From Chitinophaga pinensis (GTDB taxonomy: Bacteria > Bacteroidota > Bacteroidia > Chitinophagales > Chitinophagaceae), in assembly GCA_943333125.1 (NCBI GenBank), contig CALQSB010000012.1:1-64000 (forward strand): DNA of 64,000 nucleotides, in the 5' to 3' direction. How positions within the stretch are numbered: the stretch's first letter is position 1; each line of letters starts with the position of its first letter. The position numbers were made by a program, and so were the translations under genes. Of this stretch, positions 21,107 to 25,567 are shown piece after piece. Under the pieces are notes generated by a model. It worked only from the letters and a program-made list of their open reading frames with translations. It had not been told where the DNA came from and did not search any database.

Positions 21107-21514
21107 TTATAGACTTACATTCATTGAAATGACAACATAATAAATTGCCCAACCTGCAAATCCAATAATTATTGCCCAAAGCCATGCCGGAATAGAATGA
21201 GGAGTTTCACTTCCTTGAATTAAAAATTTCTTCTGATCGCCTTTGCCATAAGCATTGATCATTAATGGAATAACCCCGTCAACAATTTCATTTTCCGTTA
21301 TCCCTTCAATTGCAATAGCAGGTCCATTTCTAACAGTAAAAGGAATCTTCCTAATACCTTCTTTACCTAATGGATCTTTACTTACAATTTTTAAAGAGTG
21401 ATCTCCATCTACTAATTTCCAAGTATCTAATTCAAAATTAATGGGAACGGTAAACTCACCATAAGGAGTTTTTTCATCGTCAATAAATATGAGCACTTTA
21501 CTTTGATTATGCAT
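21107..21514 (-). CDS. Small accessory membrane protein of the cbb3-like locus (Ig-like domain plus C-terminal TM)
   Basis: 135 aa. The N-terminal about 100 residues look like one beta-sandwich domain (FTVPINFELDTWKLVDGDHSLKIVSKD), followed by a single TM (IPAWLWAIIIGFAGWAIYYVV) near the C-terminus. There is no signal peptide, so the topology with the domain outside would need a reversed anchor. It is the last gene of the oxidase operon, 10 bp after the CPVC protein. Unrecognised as a named subunit; a role in assembly or stability of the oxidase is inferred from position only. Confidence 0.62.
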   Translation of the reverse strand: MHNQSKVLIFIDDEKTPYGEFTVPINFELDTWKLVDGDHSLKIVSKDPLGKEGIRKIPFTVRNGPAIAIEGITENEIVDGVIPLMINAYGKGDQKKFLIQGSETPHSIPAWLWAIIIGFAGWAIYYVVISMNVSL

Positions 21515-21524
21515 AATACTTAAT

Positions 21525-21788
21525 TTAAAAAATAGAATTTTTTATGTGATTGTTATTATTCTCATCTGGCTTTACCAACCATTTAACCGAATAAAACAAT
21601 GTAGCTAATGTTATAACTACCATACCCCAGACACTAATGTATTCCCAATTGCTTTGGGGGCCTGATCCATGCAATATTCCTCTTAATAATTTCGGCTGAC
21701 TTCTTTCACATACCGGACAACAATAGGCGCTGATGTTTATAGCCGCTAAAATTAATAAGAGTAAATATTTTTTTGACAGCTTTATCAT
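21525..21788 (-). CDS. Small CPVC-motif membrane protein of the cbb3-like locus
   Basis: 87 aa. A signal peptide-like start (1-22) is followed at once by CCPVCERSQPKLLRGILHG, then a TM (about 49-70) ending in VKWLVKPDE. The CxxC pair just outside the membrane could bind copper or heme or act in redox exchange; this is inference. Its ATG overlaps the ccoO stop (ATGA, 21785-21788), so it is translated together with ccoO. Confidence 0.65.
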   Translation of the reverse strand: MIKLSKKYLLLLILAAINISAYCCPVCERSQPKLLRGILHGSGPQSNWEYISVWGMVVITLATLFYSVKWLVKPDENNNNHIKNSIF

Positions 21789-22795
21789 TTTGCAGTAGAT
21801 TTTATTTTTACAAAATCCATTATTTTTTTAATTTCTTCGGCAGTTACTTTTCTGCCATTATTGCCCCATGAACTACGTTCATAATTAATAATTGCAGTAA
21901 CTTCATTTTCTGTGAATTCCATATTCGTTCCAACGTTTGCCATAACACCAAATTCTGCTCTGGCGTCGTAACCATTCATAATGATATCAACATACAATTC
22001 TAGATTATCCCCATTTACAATCGGGCTTCCTTTAAGAGCAGGAAATGCCCCTTTAACGCCTTCTCCATTTTCCTGATGACAGCTTTGACAATTGGCCGTA
22101 AACAAAACCTTGCCATCTAATGAAACTGCATTTTTTGTACCTTCTGTTTTACCAGATACCGATTTTTTATATAAAAATTCAAACGGCCTTGTTCCTTCGG
22201 GTAGTGGAATTTGTTTTAAAGATTGCAAATAAGCAAACAGGTGTAATGCTTCTTTACTGGCAACTACTTTTCCTGATTGCCCGTTCATAAATTGAGATGG
22301 AATATTTACAACAACATCATTATAGCCTGGATTCTCTTTTATTTCAAACAGCCATTTATAAGAAGGCATTATAGATTGAGAAACAACAGAACGAGGATTA
22401 TATAAATGCATTAAATTCCAGTCCCTGCTTGTTTGCCTGTTTCCGACATCAGTAAGGTCTGGCCCTGTTCTTTCGGTACCCATTAGTGTTGCTGTATTTT
22501 GCCAGATACTTGTTCTGCCAATATTTGCATAATCAGAAGGCATACCTGGTCTTGATCCAAAAACTCTGTCCATTTCTACATTTCTTACTTGTTGAGAATG
22601 GCAGCCAACACAACCTTCAGAAATATAAACCAGCTTGCCGGCTTTCTGTTCTTTTGTAAGTGGTTTACTTGATGGAAATGGAGCATTATTTTTTTGATTC
22701 TGAAATGCTGGAACTATTACCACAAGAATGGTTAAAGTTAAAAACAAGGCTCCTGCTATTGGGTATAATTTTTTATGGTCGTTAAATACATTCAT
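21785..22795 (-). CDS. ccoO: cbb3-type oxidase subunit II fused to a second cytochrome c domain
   Basis: 336 aa membrane-anchored diheme cytochrome c. One N-terminal TM (about 10-31) is followed by a CcoO/FixO domain with heme motif CVGCH (62-66), TERTGPDLTDVGNRQTSRDW, HLYNPRSVVSQSIMPSYKWL. A second cytochrome c domain follows with CQSCH (236-240) and a MANV axial-Met region, which resembles the soluble part of CcoP. The fusion would let one subunit do the electron-entry work of CcoO and part of CcoP. It lies 11 bp after ccoN. Confidence 0.86.
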   Translation of the reverse strand: MNVFNDHKKLYPIAGALFLTLTILVVIVPAFQNQKNNAPFPSSKPLTKEQKAGKLVYISEGCVGCHSQQVRNVEMDRVFGSRPGMPSDYANIGRTSIWQNTATLMGTERTGPDLTDVGNRQTSRDWNLMHLYNPRSVVSQSIMPSYKWLFEIKENPGYNDVVVNIPSQFMNGQSGKVVASKEALHLFAYLQSLKQIPLPEGTRPFEFLYKKSVSGKTEGTKNAVSLDGKVLFTANCQSCHQENGEGVKGAFPALKGSPIVNGDNLELYVDIIMNGYDARAEFGVMANVGTNMEFTENEVTAIINYERSSWGNNGRKVTAEEIKKIMDFVKIKSTAK

Positions 22796-22806
22796 ACCAG
22801 AATATT

Positions 22807-24954
22807 TTATTGATTTGTTTGAACTTGGTTTTCTAAAATTTTAAATGCTTCTTCTTTAATGTCTATTTCTTCTACCTCTTTAACTGTCATTTTAAAGAAA
22901 TTATAAAAGAAAAGGATGTGGGAAATAAACATGATACTTCCTCCAATTGCTCTCCATAACCAGAAATCAAACATCAATACTACACTATCAATAAATGGCT
23001 TACCTTCTGCCCACATCAGCCCTCTTAAAGTAGCACCTATAGATAGCGGTATGGTATAAAAAAGTAAACCTATAAATGCCAGCCAAAAATGTGCGCCAAC
23101 AAGATGTTGAGGAGGCTCTTTCCCTGTGAGTCTGGGCACAATAGTATAAACCCCACCCCAAATCGCGAAGGTGATAATTCCATAAAATCCAAGGTGAGCA
23201 TGAGCTATTGTAAAATCTGTAAAATGCCAAATCAGATTAGTAAACTTAAATGCTTCTGCGGTGCCCTGTAAAGAAACAATTAGATAGTACATGACTGCAA
23301 CAAGGAAAAAAGGCAAAGTATAACTATGAGAAATTTTATTCCATTGTCCTTTAAAAGTCATAGTAAAATTTATAGTTGCTGCTACAACAGGAATGATCAT
23401 TCCAACACTACCAACTATAGCTACTGTTTGCAACCACCATGGAAGAGGTGCAAAAATAAAATGATGTGTACCAATTAATGTATAAAATAAAATCTGTGTC
23501 CAGAAAGCAAGTATCCCTAAACTATAAGCGTATATGGGTTTATTAATTTGCTGTGGAATGAAATAATATAACAAACCTAAAGTGTATAATGTAAACCACA
23601 TTCCAACTCCAGAGTGCATAAAATATCCCTGAACAATTGTTTCACTAACTCCATCTTGCCAAAAAGGCAAGTATGCAACTAGCGCTACAATAATAGTAAA
23701 TATGATTGCGGAAATTATATACCAGTTAGAAATATAAATTTCTTTGGTCGTACGATTGGCTACAGTAAGCAAAAAATTAGCTAATGTAAGGATGAGCGCT
23801 ACAGCAAACAAAGCCATAACTGGCCAAATATATTCTCTGAATTCTCCACCACCATTACTCATACCCGACATCAAACAAATAGAACCAAGAATAACCATCA
23901 GATTTGTAAGCACCAATGCAATCCAACCCCATTTAATATTGTAGATTTTTGCATTGCTCACCATCGGTACTACATAATATCCTAAGCCAATCATACCTAA
24001 TGAAGCCCATCCCCAAAAAACAATATTGGTGTGTACAGGTCTGATTCTTCCAAAACTCAACCAACTTATGTGGTCTAAATCCGGTGCTACAAATTTCATT
24101 CCAACATACTCACCAATTCCTGTTCCTACAACCAACCAAAAAGCCGCACAACCCAAATACCATAAAATCAACATAGAAACATCTGCATCAATACTAGGCC
24201 GTTGAGCTGCTTTCTTTTTTAAAGCAGTAAAATGAACCTCATGTTTGTCACTTACATTATGCAACAATCCTTTTGCATCAACAGGTGCTTCTGATCCCGA
24301 AAGCTCTACATTAGTCAACTCAAAATCAAGTGATTTTTTTCTTTTGGCAATTTCAATTTCCAGATCACTGTCTTCATTTGTAGTGATGAATGTGGCCAGC
24401 TTTTCAGCATCTACTATTTTCTTTGAATTTAAATAATGTTTTATGCTATTGTTTACTAAAATCAATGCATAAACAACACCCAATAAAACAGGAATCATTA
24501 ATAAAACAATGGTAATAACAATACCAGGCTGACTCATCACCACTTTTGTACTTGTGCCTGTTTGAGCGAATCCATAACTATTTAGAAAAAATAAAAATAA
24601 AACAACCGCTACCGATTTCAACTTCACGCAACTGCCATTGCATTTTCCATCACATTTGATTTTCTTTATTTTGTAGTATTTTTCAATCTGAACTTTACTT
24701 AAGTTTTTCAAATACTCTTTAAAATCAAGCCTCGCAGTACTTACCTGAGCTTGATTTTTCTGTCCAATCAATTTTAAAAAATTGAAATATAAACTGCCAA
24801 TAAAGATTACCAAAGGCAAAATACTAAAGAAAATCACCAAACAATTGCTAAACGACTGATTGTTACTGGTTATAAAATTCTGACCTATTTGAGAAAATCC
24901 AGGTTTTGATAAAAAAATAATTACCAAAAGAATGATGTTGCTTTTTTTATTCAT
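22807..24954 (-). CDS. ccoN: cbb3-type cytochrome c oxidase subunit I with long N-terminal extension
   Basis: 715 aa; the catalytic oxidase begins only near residue 235. Ligands can be read: His308 (RPVHTN) and His587 for the low-spin heme, His585 (AHAHLG) for the high-spin heme, and His447, His497 and His498 for CuB. Tyr491, six residues before the His pair, matches the cross-linked Tyr of C-type oxidases, so O2 reduction is more likely than NO reduction. The extension has two signal-peptide-like segments (ending GFSQ near 21 and GFAQ near 131), each followed by a TM, with CDGKCNGSC between. A charged linker joins it to the oxidase. Confidence 0.88.
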   Translation of the reverse strand: MNKKSNIILLVIIFLSKPGFSQIGQNFITSNNQSFSNCLVIFFSILPLVIFIGSLYFNFLKLIGQKNQAQVSTARLDFKEYLKNLSKVQIEKYYKIKKIKCDGKCNGSCVKLKSVAVVLFLFFLNSYGFAQTGTSTKVVMSQPGIVITIVLLMIPVLLGVVYALILVNNSIKHYLNSKKIVDAEKLATFITTNEDSDLEIEIAKRKKSLDFELTNVELSGSEAPVDAKGLLHNVSDKHEVHFTALKKKAAQRPSIDADVSMLILWYLGCAAFWLVVGTGIGEYVGMKFVAPDLDHISWLSFGRIRPVHTNIVFWGWASLGMIGLGYYVVPMVSNAKIYNIKWGWIALVLTNLMVILGSICLMSGMSNGGGEFREYIWPVMALFAVALILTLANFLLTVANRTTKEIYISNWYIISAIIFTIIVALVAYLPFWQDGVSETIVQGYFMHSGVGMWFTLYTLGLLYYFIPQQINKPIYAYSLGILAFWTQILFYTLIGTHHFIFAPLPWWLQTVAIVGSVGMIIPVVAATINFTMTFKGQWNKISHSYTLPFFLVAVMYYLIVSLQGTAEAFKFTNLIWHFTDFTIAHAHLGFYGIITFAIWGGVYTIVPRLTGKEPPQHLVGAHFWLAFIGLLFYTIPLSIGATLRGLMWAEGKPFIDSVVLMFDFWLWRAIGGSIMFISHILFFYNFFKMTVKEVEEIDIKEEAFKILENQVQTNQ

Positions 24955-25132: not shown

Positions 25133-25567
25133 TTATTTATTTTTAAGGAAGTACATTCCTGTATCCAGCTTTTCATTAAAATCGGCAATGGTATTATTTT
25201 CAATCATTTTAATTAAGCTCTTCTTTATTTCCTTATACTCAAAATGAACAGGACATGGATTTTTTTCAGAACAAACTTTAAGACCTAACACACAATCTGA
25301 ATAAATAACATCTCCATCAATAGCTTTTACGATATCTGCTATAGAATTTTTCAGATCAGAGGCATCCATGTAAAACCCACCATTAGGCCCTTTTACAGAA
25401 TGAATTAATTTTCTTCTGCTTAAATCTTGCATGATTTTTGCCATGAAGTGCTCGGGTGCATCAGTACCTTTCGAGATTTCTTTAATACCCACACGAGTAT
25501 CTGCATTCGACTTTTGGGCTACAAAAATCATTGCTTTTATTGCGTACTCACATGATTTAGAAAACAT
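25133..25567 (-). CDS. Rrf2-family iron-sulfur transcriptional regulator
   Basis: 144 aa. Winged helix-turn-helix at the N-terminus (CEYAIKAMIFVAQ, then MAKIMQDLSRRKLIHSVKGPNGGF). Three cysteines Cys92, Cys99 and Cys105 (C-x6-C-x5-C) match the cluster-binding loop of IscR/NsrR-type members, so it probably senses NO, oxygen or Fe-S status. It is upstream of and co-directional with the cbb3-like genes, and is the likely local regulator. Its own promoter (-7 at 25587-25594) overlaps an imperfect palindrome at 25568-25587. Confidence 0.87.
   Translation of the reverse strand: MFSKSCEYAIKAMIFVAQKSNADTRVGIKEISKGTDAPEHFMAKIMQDLSRRKLIHSVKGPNGGFYMDASDLKNSIADIVKAIDGDVIYSDCVLGLKVCSEKNPCPVHFEYKEIKKSLIKMIENNTIADFNEKLDTGMYFLKNK

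Follow-up and report, generated by a model that had tools for sequence, protein, structure and literature searches.

A doubled signal-peptide and transmembrane extension on a cbb3-like oxidase subunit I of Chitinophaga pinensis and its likely cleavage

A ccoN-like gene of Chitinophaga pinensis encodes about 255 residues ahead of the catalytic core of its product, which raises the question of what these residues are and whether they remain part of the oxidase. The gene was analysed within a stretch of 64,000 nucleotides (contig CALQSB010000012.1, positions 1 to 64,000), referred to as the window. A preliminary description had read it as a cbb3-like subunit I with a doubled signal-peptide-like extension, derived from an old fusion or duplication of a small heme- or copper-handling protein and by now a part of the oxidase.

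The operon and the class of its oxidase

The gene is the second of an operon in the order rrf2, ccoN-like gene, ccoO-cytochrome c fusion, and the genes of an 87-aa CxxC/TM protein (S86) and a 135-aa tail-anchored protein (T135):

25133..25567, minus strand: Rrf2-family regulator, upstream of the ccoN-like gene (PF02082 and TIGR00738 above cut-off)
22807..24954 including the stop codon, minus strand: ccoN-like gene, 715 aa, ATG start (ORF list and translation)
22933..24168, minus strand: catalytic COX1 core (Pfam COX1, residues 263-674, 259 bits)
21785..22795, minus strand: 336-aa fusion of ccoO and a second cytochrome c domain (Pfam FixO and Cytochrom_C)
21525..21788, minus strand: S86, signal-peptide/CxxC/TM protein
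21107..21514, minus strand: T135, with a C-terminal TM

The product of the ccoN-like gene belongs to the C family (cbb3-like) as a divergent subunit I and is not a classical CcoN. It scored 258 bits against the NCBIfam ccoN equivalog, whose cut-off is 583, and is therefore C-family-like without being filed as CcoN proper. The nearest solved structures of the core are cbb3 CcoN chains, with a Foldseek match to 3mk7_A at an E of 3.7e-20 and a TM-score by target of 0.87, while none of the seven PDB sequence matches of the 715-aa protein extends N-terminal of residue 252. Fold, His ligands and active-site Tyr are thus shared with the CcoN of cbb3, whereas an identity of about 30%, the N-terminal double unit and a Gln for the FEGP Glu set the window protein apart. 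Muntyan is said to have named, in 2015, an ‘unknown group’ near cbb3.

Conservation was read from 131 aligned rows of the family and its outgroups, with six row pairs identical in the core and with L002-L007, L010 and L034 excluded as duplicates or fragments. The six conserved His ligands and the active-site Tyr of helix VII were kept in 131/131 rows. Residue 563 was Gln in 126/126 family and related rows where the canonical FEGP motif has Glu, the Glu itself occurring in 5/5 canonical rows, and this column is the one that we take to hold the active-site Glu of authentic cbb3. A Glu four residues further on was present in most of the Gln563 rows. A passage of PMC5492636, citing Muntyan 2015, has authentic cbb3 marked by an active-site Glu. 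The window protein has Gln563 in place of this Glu, and in place of a separate two-heme CcoP the second CxxCH domain sits on CcoO, as in relatives that carry two CxxCH motifs in the same gene.

The nitric oxide reductase NorB has a Glu at its FeB site and no cross-linking Tyr. A NorB identity was rejected, with Gly451 in 92/92 two-unit rows, at what is presumably the FeB Glu position of NorB, and Tyr491 in 131/131 rows. No PF03597 (CcoS/FixS) match was found in the extension or in the window's own genome. The Betaproteobacterial relatives L031 (4983-6608), L032 (4893-6557) and L033 have a single N-terminal TM of CcoS/FixS-like look, the last of them, from Cupriavidus, matching PF03597 at an E of 0.0025, below cut-off; a CcoS-CcoN fusion is possible in these three. 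The window's own genome contains one further COX1 homologue.

Neighbouring genes were counted in the 59 of 80 family loci that exceed 11 kb, with 20 canonical loci as controls. The genes for S86 and T135 occurred in 59/59 of the family loci and in 0/20 of the controls. Neither falls into a Pfam family, and S86 might be a small subunit or act as a metal chaperone. The Rrf2 regulator has a three-Cys cluster, C-x6-C-x5-C (by eye), and is likely an Fe-S sensor. In the same family loci (flanks of L051-L130), truncated hemoglobin was found near the oxidase in 34/59, hemerythrin in 24/59 and ScdA/RIC in 21/59, and any of the three in 40/59 against 0/20 canonical loci; the queries were drawn from family loci and each was assigned to its family by Pfam. 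These neighbours are of the NO-response type and suggest a role of the family oxidase under nitric oxide stress. No such genes adjoin the window's own operon in its ORF list (by eye).

Two homologous units ahead of the core

The residues ahead of the core form two homologous units, each with a signal peptide, one TM helix and a cytoplasmic tail. The parts named in the preliminary description, namely the GFSQ and GFAQ stretches, the TMs, a Cys motif and a charged linker, were all located by eye in the ORF:

24892..24954, minus strand: signal peptide 1, residues 1-21, ending GFSQ (19-22), with the cut expected after S21 and before Q22
24781..24846, minus strand: TM helix of unit 1, about residues 37-58 (hydropathy; AlphaFold2 helix 34-73)
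24628..24654, minus strand: CDGKCNGSC motif, residues 101-109, lineage-specific
24565..24621, minus strand: internal signal peptide 2, about residues 112-130, ending GFAQ (128-131), with low model confidence
24562..24564, minus strand: Gln131, the predicted N-terminus after an internal cut
24457..24525, minus strand: well-conserved TM helix of unit 2, about residues 144-166 (sequence conservation and AlphaFold2)
24190..24456, minus strand: cytoplasmic tail and charged linker, about residues 167-255 (sequence and AlphaFold2)

In the AlphaFold2 model both units consist of a long helix followed by a short one (34-73 and 87-99; 143-192 and 196-209), with confidence lowest at both signal peptides and in the stretch before Gln131 (mean pLDDT 72.7). 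The first in-frame ATGs are those of residues 1, 140, 153 and 261 (same ORF in L034), which rules out a start codon near residue 230, a reading that had been considered earlier.

On their profile alignments, the two units are a true tandem duplication. Unit 1 aligned with unit 2 in hhalign at 98.65% with a score of 74.2 over 78 columns and one gap, beginning at the cleavage-site glutamines Q22 and Q131, and the match runs across signal peptide, TM and tail to about residue 100. Windows of the core scored at most 16.7, and neither reversed profiles nor other single-TM proteins encoded in these operons exceeded 23.7. It is this near-gapless, Gln-to-Gln alignment, at 74 against 24 for the best control, that argues for a duplication. 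The tails alone reached 31.3 against a column-shuffled maximum of 15.3, and a unit-1 profile searched against whole genomes also matched unit 2 (1.2e-9 in G701, 2.4e-7 in G030 and 0.001 in G000). The doubling seen in the preliminary description is thereby borne out, and the arrangement recurs in 92/131 rows.

The proposed origin from a heme- or copper-handling protein fared differently and is now barely credible. The window's unit-1 linker does hold three Cys, and similar clusters occur in six close relatives, but 77/92 two-unit rows have no linker Cys at all, and at least two were found in only 8/92, limited to the window's close kin. The motif is thus real in the window and not a general feature of the extension. 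By a positive-inside reading it would lie on the cytoplasmic side. The extension contains no CxxCH, searches of unit-1 sequences against Pfam and PDB gave no convincing relative (best PDB E 0.18), and the operon's separate 87-aa CxxC protein is a better metal-handling candidate. Identity of the unit with FixQ was not accepted, as Pfam FixQ touched 3/28 unit-1 rows with a best E of 0.068.

The internal site and its proposed cleavage

At the internal site of the 92 two-unit rows, position -1 was Ala in 85, Gly in 5 and Ser in 2, and position +1 was Gln in 91 and Glu in one. The N-terminal site, readable in 90 of the 92, had Ala in 81, Gly in 5, Ser in one and other residues in three at -1, and Gln in 77 at +1, which leaves the internal site slightly the stricter of the two. 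The Bacteroidetes ‘Q-rule’, as given in the consulted part of PMC5837995, places Gln at +1 of the signal peptidase I cut. The internal site shows the pattern of such substrates, in which a hydrophobic stretch is followed by a small residue at -1 and by Gln at +1, with the same Ala/Gly/Ser-Gln at the cut as the substrates in that part of PMC5837995; the window site differs from them in lying internally, within a multi-pass inner-membrane protein. The window's own genome encodes both signal peptidase I and glutaminyl cyclase.

That the extension is now a part of the oxidase, as first proposed, is plausible. The resemblance to a working signal-peptidase site makes it probable that unit 1 is cut off, and cleavage at the internal site is likely, as judged from residue conservation and from relatives that encode unit 1 separately or whose oxidase begins near the cut. 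The ccoN-like gene would then encode a polyprotein. Signal peptide 1 would export the N-terminus of unit 1, whose TM would re-enter the membrane and lead to a cytoplasmic tail; signal peptide 2 would likewise export the N-terminus of unit 2, followed by a re-entering TM, the long cytoplasmic linker and the 12-helix oxidase core. Both signal peptides would be removed by signal peptidase I. The mature subunit I would start at Gln131, probably cyclised to pyroglutamate, a modification not tested for inner-membrane proteins according to the part of PMC5837995 consulted. Unit 1 would remain membrane-bound as a small protein of its own, and our guess is that it most likely serves this oxidase as an accessory or assembly subunit, which fits production in a fixed ratio. 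This account as a whole, with duplicated units and a signal peptidase I cut that yields a small single-TM protein and an oxidase, is considered to have good odds of being correct.

Alternatively, the internal stretch could be an uncut signal-anchor, so that the oxidase would retain a three- or four-helix N-terminal extension in one chain. The topology, including an uncut hairpin of signal peptide 2 and the TM of unit 2, would allow this, the genes are fused in most relatives, and position -3 of the internal site is Leu in 35/92 rows, less classical than a small residue. However, -1 and +1 are the most conserved part of an otherwise drifting segment. The most frequent residue in the hydrophobic columns 114-129 of signal peptide 2 averaged 33% and never exceeded 50%, against an average of 65% in the TM of unit 2; the n-region was net positive in 79/92 rows. 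As a baseline, 801 other proteins from these loci were scanned, and [AGS]Q stood near the end of 27/757 of their inner hydrophobic segments and of 23/125 single N-terminal ones, so the +1 Gln in 91/92 rows is unlike inner segments elsewhere. Rows with a gene split like that of L132, or without unit 1, also lack signal peptide 2. An uncut anchor is accordingly regarded as improbable.

Two products could also arise from a second, internal translation start. Split relatives translate unit 2 from a start of its own, and in the window protein the in-frame ATGs of residues 140 and 153 could provide one. Yet a Met within 31 residues before the end of signal peptide 2 was present in only 24/92 rows (GTG/TTG left out), so that such a start is conceivable in those rows, and it would give no reason for the +1 Gln to be retained; this explanation is very improbable. 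The proposed cleavage has a likely counterpart in the fbcH cytochrome b/c1 precursor of Bradyrhizobium, a respiratory polyprotein that is probably processed by signal peptidase and belongs to a different complex and a different lineage.

Distribution of the units and a parallel in CcoP

The two-unit form belongs to a family of Bacteroidota oxidases. The family was found in 16/298 genomes of the order and 13/395 of the phylum (E at most 1e-150), and in 16/395 of the class (E at most 1e-100). Flavobacterium, Pedobacter, Dyadobacter, Chitinophaga and others are the named carriers among the best 80 of 340 loci. Canonical CcoNO ORFs started without a signal-peptide/TM unit in 20 loci examined by eye (with L019 as a shortened frame), which rules out that every Bacteroidota CcoN carries the extension; no named assignment for it was found.

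In the core tree, extension-less relatives branch first, followed by 14 one-unit rows, of which 12 have an A-Q or G-Q site (by eye), and then by the clade of the two-unit rows. This branching order points to one unit first, doubled later. The two-unit clade also holds split rows and seven signal-peptide-less or split one-unit rows, as well as L137, which has no extension and sits on a very long branch with unsure placement. Three relatives (L089, L123 and L132) have unit 1 in a gene of its own that lies upstream of the oxidase gene, which implies that fusion or fission of two genes was involved. Of the ‘fusion or duplication’ first proposed, duplication stands on the hhalign comparison, and fusion is joined by fission as the other process. 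In L089 and L123 the counterpart of the internal site belongs to a normal N-terminal signal peptide. Both are neighbours of a fused clade of 11 rows in the careful tree, a weakly supported placement (86/71) that does not distinguish a gene fusion from a fusion followed by fission. L132, which lacks signal peptide 2 and whose oxidase ORF begins shortly beyond the cut position, is an independent split; nested among fused rows (100/96), it represents a fission.

Unit 1 was lost in a six-row clade and is thus dispensable there. The seven signal-peptide-less rows of the two-unit clade (L008, L037, L038, L050, L125, L132 and L133) have their first ATG 9-14 residues ahead of an invariant Gly, which lies 10-19 residues (mean 13.8) from the Gln131 column in the 92 two-unit rows; these frames thus open at the predicted cut or a few residues beyond it. 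A whole-genome search with the unit-1 profile revealed no free unit 1 in four genomes of the signal-peptide-less clade (G004, G008, G060 and G170), where the best match was the oxidase's own unit. In G667 the best match (7.6e-4) fell in another frame, of 585 residues. One genome (G201) carries both a two-unit copy (L035) and a signal-peptide-less one-unit copy (L050).

A similar arrangement was found in canonical cbb3 loci (L011-L030 and L155-L184), where CcoP has a doubled signal-peptide/TM start in 27/29 ORFs from 30 loci. Its internal site, counted over the 43 rows with two units only and with two genomes counted twice, had Ala in 42 and Ser in one at -1, and Gln in 42 and Glu in one at +1. 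In L020 the first CcoP unit is a separate small gene (by eye). Both systems thus have two tandem units and an internal A-Q site, with the difference that the double unit is carried by the cytochrome subunit in canonical loci and by subunit I in the window.

This likeness also allows the module to be read as the membrane anchor of CcoP, displaced onto CcoN after the cytochrome domain of CcoP had moved onto CcoO, where the second CxxCH domain is found here. Unit 1 aligned with CcoP unit 1 at 85% in hhalign with a score of 28, but reversed-profile controls scored 22-24, and unit 2 against either CcoP unit gave 2.8-35.9%. Moreover, 8/8 relatives without any extension already have the CcoO fusion, so the move of the CcoP domain and the gain of the extension were not simultaneous. 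The window's own genome gave no match to a canonical CcoP N-terminus. Displacement of a CcoP anchor is thus a minority reading, worth keeping in view but doubtful.

A broader proposal is slightly favoured, in which Bacteroidota repeatedly build C-family oxidases as polyproteins processed by signal peptidase, through subunit I in the divergent oxidase and through CcoP in canonical cbb3, with the released unit 1 as an unrecognised small membrane subunit made in a fixed ratio to its partner. Among the titles and abstract openings surveyed, no paper describes this extension by title. If the internal site is real, annotation misreads this oxidase, as one ORF would stand for two proteins. If the account is true, Bacteroidota oxidases would gain a small subunit, and the Q-rule would reach internal sites of inner-membrane proteins, beyond what the consulted part of PMC5837995 covers.
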